From assembly GCF_037081775.1 (NCBI RefSeq), contig NZ_JBAMHQ010000001.1, positions 1,240,001 through 1,304,000 on the forward strand: 64,000 nucleotides of DNA. The letters run 5' to 3'. Position 1 is the first letter of the stretch, and every line of letters starts with the position of its first letter. Positions 909-33,462 of the stretch are shown piece by piece. A model generated the notes under the pieces. The model was not told where the DNA came from. It worked only from the letters and a program-made list of their open reading frames with translations, and ran no database searches. The DNA comes from Haladaptatus sp. ZSTT2 (GTDB lineage Archaea > Halobacteriota > Halobacteria > Halobacteriales > Halococcaceae). The translations under genes were made by a program, and so were the position numbers.

Positions 909-1160
909 CTACTCGACGTCAACTCCCCAAGCATCATGCTCCGATGTGACATCCGTTTCTTCAGCCCCATCGTATCCATCGAAATTGGCGAAGGTCCCCG
1001 TCCGCTGCTGAACAACTTCGATCCTGACGCTCCCATCCGATTCAACATGCCACCGAAGGCGATCGCCATCATTAATCCCAAGCTCACGACGGATCCGAGC
1101 AGGGATGTTCGCTTGATTGCCCGAGACTTTACTCTCAGCGTCAACCCGTTCACTACTCAT
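909..1160 (-). CDS. vapB: VapB-like AbrB/SpoVT antitoxin
   Basis: This 83-residue protein has an N-terminal swapped-hairpin AbrB/SpoVT DNA-binding segment (about residues 8-50, around QANIPARIRRELGINDGDRL). An acidic tail (about residues 55-83) is suited to wrapping the toxin. It is the first gene of the vapBC operon and its stop abuts the vapC start without a gap. By analogy it neutralises VapC and autorepresses the operon. No clear operator was identified in 1161-1319. Confidence 0.85.
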   Translation of the reverse strand: MSSERVDAESKVSGNQANIPARIRRELGINDGDRLRWHVESDGSVRIEVVQQRTGTFANFDGYDGAEETDVTSEHDAWGVDVE

Positions 1161-1623: not shown

Positions 1624-1693
1624 GTGACATCCTCCCCGTCGTAAACGACGGGGCTTCCCCGACACGGGGACTCAGGCACTCGGCCTGAAGGTT
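1624..1693 (-). ncRNA. Candidate omega-RNA scaffold and right end of the TnpB element
   Basis: Downstream of the tnpB stop, two hairpins are visible. One is 1634-1653 (8-bp perfect stem, loop TTTA on the transcribed strand) and the other is a short CCCC/GGGG stem at 1657-1669. The first is followed by GGATGTCAC at 1624-1632. The same hairpin-GGATGTCAC arrangement occurs as an orphan at 31637-31666. In IS200/IS605 elements the transposon right end forms the 3' part of the guide RNA used by TnpB. The RNA itself is inferred, and its 5' limit probably lies inside tnpB. Confidence 0.5.
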
Positions 1694-2935
1694 TCAGTCC
1701 TGATACGTCGTGAGGGTCATTTGCGCTGGTGCGCTCGTCTCACGGTGGACTGTGGCGGTGTCACAACCGCTCCCGTCCTGTGGCGAGTCATCGCCTGCCT
1801 GTTTCCACGGCAGCCTCCCTCCCCACGGGTCTACGCGACGTGCGATATTCGCACTCGCGTTAATATCCGCTTGAAACGTCGAAACGTGACACTCAGGGTT
1901 CTTGCACGTGAACTCGGCTTGCCGAGGCCGATACCCGATGTGCTTGCACGAGTGACACGTCTTCGAGGTGTACTGCGGGTGAACGTATCGAACCGGGATG
2001 CCAGCGTCCTTCGCCTTGTCTTCGATACGCCCCTGCAACCGAGCGAAGGCCCACGAGTGCAGGCGTCGATTCATGTACTTCCCGTAGTCCAGCGACTCGC
2101 GGATGTATGCTAAGTCCTCCATCACGATGACGGGGTTCTCGAACTGACGGGCGTACTCCACGGACTCCCGAGATGCTTTCTCGATGAGGTCGGTGAGGCG
2201 GTTTTGGTAGTACGAGAAGCGTTCTTCGACGCGCCACTCAGAAGCGTCTCGCTCTTGGAGTCGCTTGAGCGTCGTGAACATCTCTTTTCGAATTCGTTTG
2301 GCCTCTTTCCCGTTAATTAACAGAGGTTTGGTGGGAGTGTTGTGTTGGAGGGCACAGCCCGTGACCAGCATCGACTCCCCAATATCGAATCCAACCCGAG
2401 TCGGATTCTCGGGCAGTTCGGAGGTGTTCTTGAGTTCGTATTCGACGGTGACGTGGAGTGTCCACGTCTTCCGGTGTTTCTGCAAGCGAAGTTCGCCCAC
2501 TTTCGTACTCGACTCGTCATCGAGCATCTCACCCCACAGTTCCTCTTGTTCGGGGTTCAGTCGAAGTGGTATCCAGAAGTTGGTTCCGCGACCGGGTTGC
2601 GGAACGTTCCAGCAGATTTCGTATTCACGCGAGGAGTTTCGGTCGAACTTCCCGGCTCGATTCACGAATCTGAGCGGGTGTTCGTCGTCCAACTCTTTGG
2701 CGTTGTACGTCTTGTGGAGTTTTGGGACGTAGGATTTGAGGGCGTCTTTCGCTTGGTACGGTAGGTTGTATGGAGTTACCACGTCGTTCGTGGCGTTCAT
2801 CGTCGTGCAACCGTTGTTGAACGCCTCGTGGAGTGCCTCTCGGTACTCGGCGAGGGTTTGCTGGAGGCGTTGCTCTTTGCACCGCGTTGGGGGTGCAAGC
2901 GTGGCTTCCAGCGTCTTGTTCGCGGTTGCAGACAC
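1694..2935 (-). CDS. tnpB: IS200/IS605-family TnpB RNA-guided nuclease (OrfB, IS1341-type)
   Basis: The 413-residue protein has the RuvC-like catalytic triad D184 (in GFDIGES), E273 (in VIVMED) and D357 (in QADINASANIA). A zinc finger (C327, C330, C344, C349) lies between the last two acids. This is the full TnpB architecture at normal length, and no lesion is visible. No tnpA (Y1 transposase) is in the window, so the element is non-autonomous or IS1341-type. TnpB enzymes cut DNA guided by an RNA from the element's right end. A small divergent gene lies upstream at 2990-3139, as is common for haloarchaeal copies. Confidence 0.92.
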   Translation of the reverse strand: MSATANKTLEATLAPPTRCKEQRLQQTLAEYREALHEAFNNGCTTMNATNDVVTPYNLPYQAKDALKSYVPKLHKTYNAKELDDEHPLRFVNRAGKFDRNSSREYEICWNVPQPGRGTNFWIPLRLNPEQEELWGEMLDDESSTKVGELRLQKHRKTWTLHVTVEYELKNTSELPENPTRVGFDIGESMLVTGCALQHNTPTKPLLINGKEAKRIRKEMFTTLKRLQERDASEWRVEERFSYYQNRLTDLIEKASRESVEYARQFENPVIVMEDLAYIRESLDYGKYMNRRLHSWAFARLQGRIEDKAKDAGIPVRYVHPQYTSKTCHSCKHIGYRPRQAEFTCKNPECHVSTFQADINASANIARRVDPWGGRLPWKQAGDDSPQDGSGCDTATVHRETSAPAQMTLTTYQD

Positions 2936-21415: not shown

Positions 21416-21649
21416 TCAGCGCGGGTCTCCACGAGAGGTCATCGATTCAGCCGTGTCGCGGCGTGCGACGCTGGTCGGTTCAATCGCCCGAAGGAAGCGA
21501 ACGACCAACACCAGTCCGAGAAGGCCCAACACCGCGAAGATGACAACCTGCGGGAGGACAACTGGCTGTCCATCACGCACCATGAACGCAATCATCGCAA
21601 GGACGGCCAAACCGAGCGTCGTGCCTTTCACGAGGAGGATGCCGGTCAT
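21416..21649 (-). CDS. Small two-helix membrane protein
   Basis: The 77-residue protein begins MTGILLVKGTTLGLAVLA and has two hydrophobic helices (about 8-25 and 35-52) and a polar tail. The frame extends upstream to 21724, but that part only reads through the hairpin at 21653-21672, so the ATG at 21649 is chosen. No family was recognised. Confidence 0.6.
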   Translation of the reverse strand: MTGILLVKGTTLGLAVLAMIAFMVRDGQPVVLPQVVIFAVLGLLGLVLVVRFLRAIEPTSVARRDTAESMTSRGDPR

Positions 21650-21652
21650 CGA

Positions 21653-21672
21653 CCCACGACTAAAGTCGTGGG
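21653..21672 (-). repeat. Orphan IS200/IS605-type end hairpin
   Basis: CCCACGACT and AGTCGTGGG pair perfectly. On the - strand it reads GGAAGCCC-stem-TTTA-stem-GGGTCGATGAC, close to the tnpB right end at 1624-1660. There is no transposase gene beside it, so it is a relic or a miniature element end. It abuts the start codon of the gene at 21649. Confidence 0.5.
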
Positions 21673-21794
21673 CTTCCTCCATGCATCTCTGGATGTGAGA
21701 CTGCGAAGCCACCACCGCCGTCAACGGTTATGGCAGTGGTCTGAGTATGGAGCCTGTACAGAGTCACACCGTACAGTCATCTACGCACCTCCCA

Positions 21795-30755: not shown

Positions 30756-31331
30756 ATGAACTCGGACACTTCTCGTCAACAAAACTCCATGACTGCGCGG
30801 CTTCGAGCGGCGATTGCCGAATCGAAAGTTGGCAGGTTCAGCGCCACACTATCGCTGGCAATCGAAAACTCGGCCATCTCGCGCGCTGGACAGAAGCTTT
30901 CTCACTGGGTACAACAGTCGTACCTCTTTCGCTGGCTCACCGCGGAGCCAGAACCAGAGGTTATCGTCATCGACCTGCGCGAGTCGTGGTTCGTTGGCCC
31001 CGTTATCGTCGCACTCGACCGGTTTACGAAAGCGGTTGTACCCGCCGTAGAGACGTCGAGGATGCGGCGCGCGACGAAGCGGCTTACAGCCCGTCTCTCG
31101 CGTGCGCCACTGCGGTTCGCTGGCCTCGCGGGCGTGGTCGCCTTCTCCACGCTGGTCGCGGCTGCGCTCCTCACCGGGACGCTCACACGGCCTGCAATGG
31201 GTGCGTATGCTATCTGCCTCGGCCTCGCACTCGCTGGGACGCGCGTGGGGCTGTCATGGCGCGAGCTCGGCGAAACGAAAATCGGAAAAGCAGTTTCGGC
31301 GGCGTTCGTTCCGCCCGAATACGACGACTGA
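30756..31331 (+). CDS. Two-helix membrane protein near the CHAT locus
   Basis: The 191-residue protein starts MNSDTSRQQNSMTARLRAAI. It has an amphipathic N-terminal half, the segment EPEVIVIDLRESWFVGPVIVALDR (about 68-91), and two closely spaced hydrophobic helices (about 130-148 and 152-168). No family name was certain; similar proteins occur in other haloarchaea. The frame is open upstream to 30654, but that stretch is not acidic and lies in AT-rich DNA, so 30756 is preferred. Link to the CHAT locus is by proximity only. Confidence 0.6.
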   Translation: MNSDTSRQQNSMTARLRAAIAESKVGRFSATLSLAIENSAISRAGQKLSHWVQQSYLFRWLTAEPEPEVIVIDLRESWFVGPVIVALDRFTKAVVPAVETSRMRRATKRLTARLSRAPLRFAGLAGVVAFSTLVAAALLTGTLTRPAMGAYAICLGLALAGTRVGLSWRELGETKIGKAVSAAFVPPEYDD

Positions 31332-31389
31332 TTATACGGATTCACGGAGAATACTGCGGCTTTAGCCACAGGATGAATCCAACAATTAA

Positions 31390-31666
31390 AGCCACAGATT
31401 ATCGTATTGGAGCCTGTGCGTGGAAAACTGGCAGTTGGTTCGGTGTTTGCCGCGACCTCCAGTCGAAATCAAAAAGTAAGCCGACCACGCCGACCGTCGT
31501 TAAACAATCAGGTAACTCGAAGCCCTCTACGGGATACGAGTAACGGCTTCGTGGCAGAGCCACTGGCTGACGGTCCAGCAAACCTTAGACTCCCAACCCT
31601 CAAGATTGACCTGCCCGGCCAACACCGGGTGGGAGGCCCGCGCCTTTAGGCGCGGGAGGATGTCAC
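31390..31666 (+). mobile_element. Orphan IS200/IS605-type right end / relic element
   Basis: The right edge shows two hairpins: CCCGG...CCGGG at 31614-31629, and a perfect 8-bp stem with TTTA loop at 31637-31656. Then comes GGATGTCAC at 31658-31666. Loop, order and terminal word match the tnpB right end at 1624-1660. No transposase or tnpB frame remains; the left limit is a guess. The terminal word overlaps the glmS stop codon (31663-31665), so the element sits exactly at the glmS 3' end. Confidence 0.6.
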
Positions 31667-33462
31667 TCGACCGTCACACTCTTTGCGAGGTTGCGCGGCT
31701 TGTCAATCGACCGCCCGAGCTGTGCGGCCGTGTAGTAGGCGAGCAACTGGAGCGGGACGTTCCCGAGAATCGGCGCGGTGCGCGGGTGGCTCTCAGGGAT
31801 GCGAATGACGTGGTCTGCGTAGCGTTCGACGTCCGACTGGCCGTCGGTGACGGCGATGACCGGCGCGTCGCGTGCCTCGACTTCTTTGACGTTGCCGATG
31901 GTTTTTCGCGCAATCTCGTCGTCGCCGGTGACGATGGCGATGACCGGCGTCTTATCGGAGACGAGCGCGAGCGGGCCGTGTTTGAGTTCGCCCGCGGCAA
32001 AGCCCTCTGCGTGCTTGTAGGTAATCTCCTTCATCTTGAGCGCGCCCTCAAGCGCGACGGGGAAGTTGAGTCCCCGGCCGATGAAGAAGTACGCATCGGC
32101 ATCGAGATACTTCTCTGCGATGGCTTCGGTGAGAGGCGCTTCGTCGAGAATCGCCTGCACCGCGCTCGGGAGGTCGCGGAACGCCTCGATGATGTCGCGC
32201 TTGGTCGAGGATTTGACCGGCGCGGTTGCCATGACGAGCAGCGTCATCGCGGCGAGCTGCGAGGCGAACGTCTTCGAGGCGGCGACCCCAATCTCGGGGC
32301 CAGCGCGGATGTAAAAGACGTGGTCGCACTCCCGCGAAACAGTGCTCCCGATGACGTTGGTGACCCCAAGCGTGGTCGCCCCACGGCGCTTTGCCTCGCG
32401 CAGCGCAGAGAGCGTGTCTGCGGTCTCACCGGACTGGGTGACACCGATGACGAGGTCGTCGCCCGCGGGCGGTGGCGAGGTGGTGAACTCGCTCGCGAGG
32501 AACGCTTGGGCCGGAATCCCGGCTTCGCGGAACAGTTCTGCACCGTACATCGCAGCGTGATACGAGGTCCCACAAGCGACGAACTGGACGCCCGTTGGCT
32601 GTAACTCACCGAGTTCTTCGATGGTAATCGAGCCAGTGAGTTCGTTCATCCGGCCGCGGAGACACTGACGCAGCGCGCGGGGCTGTTCGTGAATCTCCTT
32701 TATCATGAAGTGGTCGTAGCCACTCTTGCCCGTCTCCTCTGCGTTCCACTCGATGGTGTGAACCTCTTTGTCGTGGTGTGTCCCCGAGTGGTCGGTCACG
32801 TACCACTCGCGCTCGTTGATGACGGCGATTTCACCGTCTTCTACGTACACCACTTGGTCGGTGTAATCGCGAAAGGCAGGAACGTCACTGCCGAGGTACG
32901 TCGCGTCTTCTGCGATGCCGAGGACGAGCGGCGAGTCTTGGCGCGCCGCGTAGATGGTGTCGTGACCCGCGAACACGGCGAGAATCGCGTAGCTCCCCTC
33001 GATGGTCTTGATGGCGTCGTAGAACGCCTCTTTCTGCGTCATACCCGCGTCGAGATTTCGCTCGATGAGGTGGGACACCACTTCCGTGTCAGTGTCGCTT
33101 TGGAACTCGTGGCCCTGCTCTGTGAGTTCGTCACGCAGCGTCTGGTAGTTCTCGATGATGCCGTTGTGAATCACCGCCACATCGCCCGTGCAATCTTGAT
33201 GCGGGTGGGAGTTGCGGTCGTTTGGCGGGCCGTGGGTTGACCACCGGGTGTGGCCAATGCCGAGGCGACCGCTCAAGCCGGTTCCCTGAACCGCCTGCTC
33301 TAAGTTGACGAGTTCCCCCTGGCGCTTGACGACGGAGATGTCATCGTTTACGAGCGCGACACCCGCCGAGTCGTAGCCGCGGTATTCGAGCTTCGACAGC
33401 CCGTTCATCAGTACATCTAACGTTTCCCCCTCTCGGCCAACGCAGCCAATAATTCCACACAT
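31663..33462 (-). CDS. glmS: Glutamine-fructose-6-phosphate aminotransferase (isomerizing)
   Basis: The 599-residue enzyme has the N-terminal nucleophile Cys2 (MCGIIGCVG), a glutaminase domain (about 1-220) with RGYDSAG and HTRWSTHG, and two SIS domains (about 280-420 and 450-590) with CGTSYHA and TQSGETADT. It makes glucosamine-6-phosphate from fructose-6-phosphate and glutamine, the entry step to UDP-GlcNAc. Its ATG shares one nucleotide with the stop of the upstream nucleotidyltransferase (TAATG), indicating coupling. Confidence 0.97.
   Translation of the reverse strand: MCGIIGCVGREGETLDVLMNGLSKLEYRGYDSAGVALVNDDISVVKRQGELVNLEQAVQGTGLSGRLGIGHTRWSTHGPPNDRNSHPHQDCTGDVAVIHNGIIENYQTLRDELTEQGHEFQSDTDTEVVSHLIERNLDAGMTQKEAFYDAIKTIEGSYAILAVFAGHDTIYAARQDSPLVLGIAEDATYLGSDVPAFRDYTDQVVYVEDGEIAVINEREWYVTDHSGTHHDKEVHTIEWNAEETGKSGYDHFMIKEIHEQPRALRQCLRGRMNELTGSITIEELGELQPTGVQFVACGTSYHAAMYGAELFREAGIPAQAFLASEFTTSPPPAGDDLVIGVTQSGETADTLSALREAKRRGATTLGVTNVIGSTVSRECDHVFYIRAGPEIGVAASKTFASQLAAMTLLVMATAPVKSSTKRDIIEAFRDLPSAVQAILDEAPLTEAIAEKYLDADAYFFIGRGLNFPVALEGALKMKEITYKHAEGFAAGELKHGPLALVSDKTPVIAIVTGDDEIARKTIGNVKEVEARDAPVIAVTDGQSDVERYADHVIRIPESHPRTAPILGNVPLQLLAYYTAAQLGRSIDKPRNLAKSVTVE

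Follow-up and report, generated by a model that had tools for sequence, protein, structure and literature searches.

Stand-alone omegaRNAs that act in trans have been reported for IscB. The sotRNAs of haloarchaeal tnpB genes, reportedly described by Gomes-Filho in 2015, are encoded in cis with tnpB. In the sections of the literature cited here, a sotRNA is demonstrated in Halobacterium salinarum, and the haloarchaeal sotRNAs or omegaRNAs (Rfam RF02656) occupy the right end of their elements (PMC12558985). For TnpB with cis-encoded guides, one such section proposes that sites which have lost the element are cut and that repair then restores it (PMC8612924). Palindrome-associated transposable elements (PATEs) were described in Haloquadratum walsbyi; they have no transposase gene, carry palindromes near IS605-related ends, and show neither inverted terminal repeats nor target duplication (PMC3119063, in the part considered). 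One of them, HqIRS71, includes part of a transposase C-terminal region and some are treated as degenerate ends; an RNA scaffold, covariation and stop-codon insertion are not mentioned in that part of the paper (PMC3119063). Work on halovirus HRTV-DL1 and Halorubrum lacusprofundi describes a 489-bp PATE whose end alone is strongly expressed, nearly all in one direction, and for which a role as ncRNA is proposed; it is treated as a single element, in the cited sections without a family model or a link to a TnpB acting in trans (PMC10544981). Finally, a PATE-like IS605 sequence of about 271 nt, consisting of ends only and with no protein gene, is known from the bacterium Halanaerobium as a single copy, for which the part of the account used here gives no RNA analysis (PMC7290912).

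The window, that is, the whole 64,000-nucleotide stretch of DNA analysed (G000:C1:1240001-1304000), carries a sequence of this kind at the 3' end of glmS (Table 1). By all features tested it is a complete, non-autonomous miniature IS200/IS605-type element of the PATE type, a kind already known from haloarchaea, and its placement at the glmS stop is real and precise. It fails as an autonomous IS200/IS605 element, which would carry tnpA and/or tnpB inside, and its 331 bp leave no room for a transposase gene. The palindromes near its two ends are IS605-related, both ends are held in common with tnpB elements of the congener G002, and comparison of its flanks with the empty sites of the congeners G001 and G002 reveals no target duplication. 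In these respects, and in having no inverted terminal repeats, it resembles the PATEs of H. walsbyi as set out in the sections cited above, and in possessing ends with no protein gene it resembles the Halanaerobium sequence. Occupied and empty sites, together with dispersed copies, mark the family as mobile. The original prediction, made from the window alone, had taken the sequence for an orphan end starting at 31390; its two TTTA-loop hairpins and the motif GGATGTCAC are indeed there, as is the glmS stop within that terminal motif, and the left end had been missed, the element beginning at 31336 and being complete. The left-end hairpin, which has one mismatch in the window, reads CTGGTGGC-TTTA-GCCACCAG in several relatives. 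TTAT lies directly 5' of the left end, at a fixed offset, in 25 of 41 family copies, and the right terminus is GTCAC in 93 of 100 copies and GTCAA in five. Also correct was the statement that no protein gene is left: the longest frame in the element (80 aa, 31407-31649) has no Pfam match at E<=10. A coding remnant was considered and rejected because this frame, open in several relatives, is broken in the alignment by gaps of 4 and other sizes that are not multiples of three.

Table 1. Coordinates of the element and its surroundings in the window
Feature	Position	Strand	Basis or remark
Miniature IS200/IS605-type element (PATE type)	31336..31666	+	Ends common to relatives; empty site in G001 and G002
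TTAT target tetranucleotide, left of element	31332..31335	+	ATAA on the glmS strand (last base of Glu codon plus TAA stop, empty site)
Left-end subterminal hairpin, CTGcGGC-TTTA-GCCaCAG, one mismatch	31354..31371	+	TTTA loop
Right-end hairpin CCCGCGCC-TTTA-GGCGCGGG, perfect; last helix of the predicted RNA scaffold	31637..31656	+	
Right end GGATGTCAC	31658..31666	+	Terminal motif of the element
Conserved core of the family	31414..31666	+	64 matches, 48/391 haloarchaeal genomes, E<=1e-9
omegaRNA/sotRNA-like scaffold (predicted)	31491..31666	+	R1 199.8 bits; covariation; sot0042 E 7.8e-9, below gathering score
Would-be guide, 20 nt past the right end, antisense to last glmS codons	31667..31686	+	Position inferred from known TnpB/omegaRNA layout
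glmS, 599 aa, host gene with swapped stop	31663..33462	-	SIS and glutamine amidotransferase domains
glmS stop TGA, supplied by the element	31663..31665	-	Empty-site comparison
Convergent reading frame, 225 aa	30654..31331	+	Family matches: none above cut-off

GlmS is 98% identical to its counterpart in G001 and 93% to that in G002, the closest congeners, and in both the site is empty: G001 reads ..GACTAC|TCGAC.. and G002 ..GACTGACTAT|TCGAC.., compared with ..GACTGATTAT[element]TCGAC in the window, or, over a longer stretch of the + strand, ..CGACGCTGACTAC|TCGACGGTCACAC and ..GCGACTGACTAT|TCGACGGTCACAC compared with ..GACGACTGATTAT[331 bp]TCGACCGTCACAC. The place of TTAT is taken in the two congeners by CTAC and CTAT. 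These empty sites, and tnpB-less relatives that have the same two ends, bear out one of the alternatives first proposed, a miniature element inserted precisely at the stop. If the window's flanks are joined, glmS ends in ..GTC GAA TAA; with the element it ends in ..GTC GAG TGA. The target ATAA and the last four bases of the element, GTGA, stand in the same register, so that GAA TAA becomes GAG TGA and the last amino acid is kept. The element thus provides the stop as well as the wobble G of the codon before it, leaving the GlmS protein unchanged, and because the new stop comes from the element's own end the protein goes unharmed. On the other side, the stop TGA (31329-31331) of the convergent 225-aa frame directly adjoins the TTAT target. 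The possibility that the sequence stands behind glmS in all relatives as a normal terminator, which had been named as counter-evidence, does not agree with 25 other haloarchaeal glmS 3' ends (L079-L103), none of which has the element, and this absence suggests that the insertion is recent. In one of them, from another genus (L083 in G016), the glmS TGA leads into the right end (TTCAC) of a different TnpB element, with the C-terminal part of an L031-type TnpB encoded just inside; judged by sequence, this is a second, independent and convergent insertion in the same glmS stop codon.

The register applies generally. Read on the opposite strand, the target TTAT becomes A-TAA and the terminal TCAC becomes G-TGA, so that insertion at an antisense NNA-TAA gives NNG-TGA. 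The frequency of such exchanges was taken from 100 copies with different flanks, namely 60 left from 67 loci after removal of four without a right end and of L051, L054 and L074, and 40 later loci drawn from the top of the list returned by R1 (the covariance model described below) rather than at random. In 18 of the 100 the stop of an antisense gene is replaced by the TGA of the element, against 11 of 502 control TTAT sites in the same flanks under the same test (Fisher 1.7e-8) and 10 of 325 control sites outside open coding frames (2.1e-6), the coding frames being called with a crude codon score for which six genes of the window served as training set. Open best-coding antisense frames that reach the element fall into the swap phase in 20 cases and into the other two phases in 5 and 3 (binomial p 4e-5), a count taken from the element's edge and hence slightly different from 18. 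When 20 swap-site proteins were scanned against Pfam (17 that pass the test besides glmS, plus the long-frame extras L064, L065 and L048), 15 had a match at E<=1e-4, with the domain ending near the C-terminus in most; examples are a short-chain dehydrogenase, MoaC, enoyl-CoA hydratase, IGPD, a glyoxalase and a histidine kinase. The signal is weaker for tnpB-bearing elements, which replace a stop in 3 of 34 cases. Base composition by itself would be expected to produce some enrichment, as most TTAT sites in GC-rich genomes are intergenic or overlap TAA stops, and 6 of 101 TTAT sites in the window pass the same stop test; nevertheless, both sets of controls pass far less often than the insertions do, and composition as the sole cause is somewhat unlikely. 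The excess at antisense stops may come from targeting or from survival, either one.

Copies of the element core, up to 92% identical where they come from other genera, are found with different flanks across the haloarchaea, and at least eight close copies occur in a single genome (G079), compared with no second copy at E<=0.001 in the genome of the window. A tblastn probe set found no tnpB inside the element at any of the 67 loci or at the 40 further ones (107 in all); as a control, 10 of 10 known TnpB loci were recovered by other members of the set. Fragments of tnpB lie near, but outside, the element at 7 of the 67 loci (L044, L063, L113, L124, L135, L138 and L139, that of L124 being only 30 aa long and lying on the opposite strand) and at 5 of the 40 (L172, L192, L199, L200 and L201). 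The loci L185 and L186 and their sister matches in G200 and G313, which are multi-copy, tnpB-less and score 76-79 bits, are probably further PATE families with a related RNA.

In structure and position the right half of the element is as expected of an omegaRNA, with a predicted structured scaffold located at the right end. Its parts are a closing helix, a CTCG/CGAG helix, a GGCTT/GAGCC hairpin, a CTCCCA/TGGGAG helix and the terminal hairpin. The alignment A1 holds 49 of 59 listed sequences (L056, L063, L109, L124, L127, L133, L140, L073, L074 and L077 being omitted), and A2 holds 47 of these (without L067 and L139), with the structure drawn on the window's own copy. Standard pairs make up 89.3% of cells in the 47-copy alignment, against 73.0% after shuffling, and 24 of 38 base pairs show two-sided changes. 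Covariation scores 0.384, compared with 0.129 for shuffled alignments and no more than 0.130 for slid ones. None of 500 shuffles reached the observed measures of pairing and covariation, but shuffles lose relatedness, so these values are not probabilities; the slid control retains it. A long-range helix (alignment columns 3-9 with 84-90) has 93.5% of cells paired and two-sided change in 4 of 7 pairs, and RNAalifold, applied to the wider 49-copy alignment, independently predicted 31 pairs, compensatory changes being seen in 17. The covariance model R1 was built from 47 tnpB-less copies; no sequence matches it better than the window's copy, at 199.8 bits, which is also one of the source sequences. 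The Rfam model sot0042 (RF02656), which represents the sotRNA of haloarchaeal tnpB genes, matches 31510-31657 at 39.6 bits (E 7.8e-9, 601 bases being searched), under its gathering score of 88 bits. It matches 12 of the 15 family copies given, all of them likewise under that score, compared with 5 of 5 TnpB-linked loci given, 4 of them above it. By cut-off, therefore, the predicted RNA is not a member of RF02656, though homologous to it, and it differs from the sotRNAs as well in coming from a miniature without tnpB. With R1 the sot0042-type TnpB loci score 24-50 bits (30 of 30; the best TnpB locus 55.8) and the sampled tnpB-less loci 77-200 bits, a difference that arises partly by construction since R1 was built from tnpB-less copies, and that covers matches down to about 75 bits and, below this, the TnpB loci. 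By sequence the miniature RNAs form a sister lineage of the TnpB-linked ones. That the signal exceeds chance is borne out on three counts: the recurrence of the core in other genera, the sot0042 match and an RNA fold z-score of -3.1.

A TnpB that could serve such an RNA is present in the same genome. The TnpB C-terminal family is matched 12 times there, and one of these matches, on contig C2, is a TnpB of the sot0042 type (L034, G000:C2:249368-250621) that is 93% identical to that of G002. Among genomes with the element 42 of 48 have a sot0042-type TnpB (E<=1e-60), compared with 229 of 343 non-carriers (Fisher p 0.003); for TnpA, present in 38 of 48 genomes with the element and in 229 of 343 without it, the association is weak (p 0.10; 267 of 391 genomes overall). 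These tallies were counted by hand from match listings, and may reflect total mobile-element load. TnpA itself gave no match at E<=0.001 in the window's genome, and the window's own copy is thus probably immobile at present. TnpB-linked ends are GTCAA in 32 of 34 cases, as opposed to the GTCAC of the miniatures, so the two kinds of element may use different TnpAs. The L034 protein has GDL at its presumed RuvC-II motif, perhaps an alternative or a lost catalytic site. In many TnpBs EDL stands at this position, and the substitution makes the cleavage activity of L034 uncertain. The would-be guide has 1-2 mismatches to glmS of the congeners, but CTAC or CTAT stands there in place of TTAT beside the match, and these genes are therefore doubtful as targets.

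The explanation that we regard as very probable is that a PATE inserted behind TTAT at the glmS stop and that its right half is the omegaRNA scaffold of a tnpB-less lineage, a guide RNA kept by selection and probably served by TnpB in trans. A TnpA encoded elsewhere, needed for any movement of the element, would have placed it there. Transcription of the + strand would yield an RNA consisting of the scaffold followed by a guide taken from the 3' end of glmS, and a TnpB from elsewhere, the sot0042-type protein of contig C2 being a candidate, would load this scaffold in trans. Once loaded, TnpB would cut copies of the site that had lost the element, and repair would restore it. Across haloarchaea, the lineage, which has no tnpB, keeps its helices by compensatory change. 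That transcription occurs is made plausible by the strongly expressed PATE end reported in the cited sections on HRTV-DL1 (PMC10544981). The guide RNA for a distant TnpB that had been suggested at the outset accordingly gains from the homology to omegaRNAs, from covariation where there is no TnpB in cis and from the sot0042-type TnpB elsewhere in the genome; that the RNA is made, that it is loaded in trans and that the element profits from the cutting of emptied sites is what we infer.

A plain relic of internal deletion, in which a tnpB element that once sat at glmS shed its core and kept only its ends, the RNA part being a functionless fossil, would fit the mismatch in the left hairpin, the single copy and the missing TnpA match in this genome, and the loss of cores reported for Haloquadratum IS605-type elements (PMC3119063, in the part considered). 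It is already disfavoured, and we hold it to be improbable: the same tnpB-less core recurs at independent sites in many genera and several times within G079, a fossil would not keep its helices through two-sided changes, and the window's copy, although among R1's source sequences, matches the model best. Rather less improbable, yet still clearly unlikely, is that the terminal structures are kept just for transposition by TnpA in trans and have no guide function. The Y1 TnpA of IS200/IS605 needs a right-end hairpin and a GTCAC end such as these, TnpA is widespread among the genomes searched, and transposition by itself would be enough to make the terminal hairpin covary. What weighs against such a limited role is that covariation reaches about 175 nt inwards, to helices unlike the hairpins bound by TnpA and including the long-range one, and that the scaffold has a homologue among the curated RNAs associated with TnpB.

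Co-option of the element as a glmS 3' region or regulator, through antisense RNA or TnpB-based repression, is the least probable reading, and indeed highly unlikely. In its favour, the would-be guide lies antisense to the 3' end of glmS, and transcripts of that gene must run on into the element. The latter agrees with the early suggestion that the end now serves as a 3' UTR; that suggestion is only partly sustained, for the right-end hairpin, tested as an intrinsic terminator, lacks a T run behind it on the strand of glmS. The element's absence from the other glmS loci speaks against a regulatory role, no sign of site-specific selection was seen, and the resident element parts the target motif from the guide match. 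The only terminator-like matches lie inside the element around 31479-31496 (-), where a hairpin with a T run on the glmS strand might end glmS transcripts about 170 nt past the stop.

With trans service by TnpB as the preferred reading, the family resembles the IscB system in that the guide RNA is apart from the nuclease gene, and differs from it in the nuclease family and in that the RNA resides in a small mobile element. A wider proposal, which we put forward tentatively and would not yet bet on, is that haloarchaea harbour a lineage of mobile stand-alone omegaRNAs selected for TnpBs encoded elsewhere, for which harmless insertion at antisense stops makes gene ends a preferred safe harbour. 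PATEs have so far been described partly as IS605-type leftovers; if their RNA is selected in elements without a nuclease gene, they would be parasites of the TnpB system, with guide and nuclease in separate elements, and would offer a natural test of omegaRNA action in trans. The exchange of stops offers a simple mechanical explanation of how elements of the IS200/IS605 type can settle at no cost in essential genes such as glmS; a limited literature search turned up no paper that states it. What is new here is a strongly covarying RNA lineage without tnpB, together with the replacement of stop codons in frame and the statistics of that replacement.

The nine-letter motif GGATGTCAC was rejected as evidence by itself, being weak against shuffles: the window has three copies against 0.57 expected, and three were reached in 2 of 100 shuffles. 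The copy at 946-954 (-), which by eye lies inside a small AbrB-like reading frame, is probably a coincidence. An actual tnpB right end is found at 1624-1700 (-), and from 1624 to about 3300 (-) extends a TnpB element (L038) with an open 418-aa frame and the end GGATGTCAC. As a possible conserved promoter upstream of the core, 10 of 47 copies have TTTAA or TTTAC at -43 relative to the anchor TGGC[AG]GT[TC]G, with no clear AT peak. A weak R1 match of 22 bits at 21645-21739 (-), with the hairpin CCCACGACTTTAGTCGTGGG, is possibly another PATE end.
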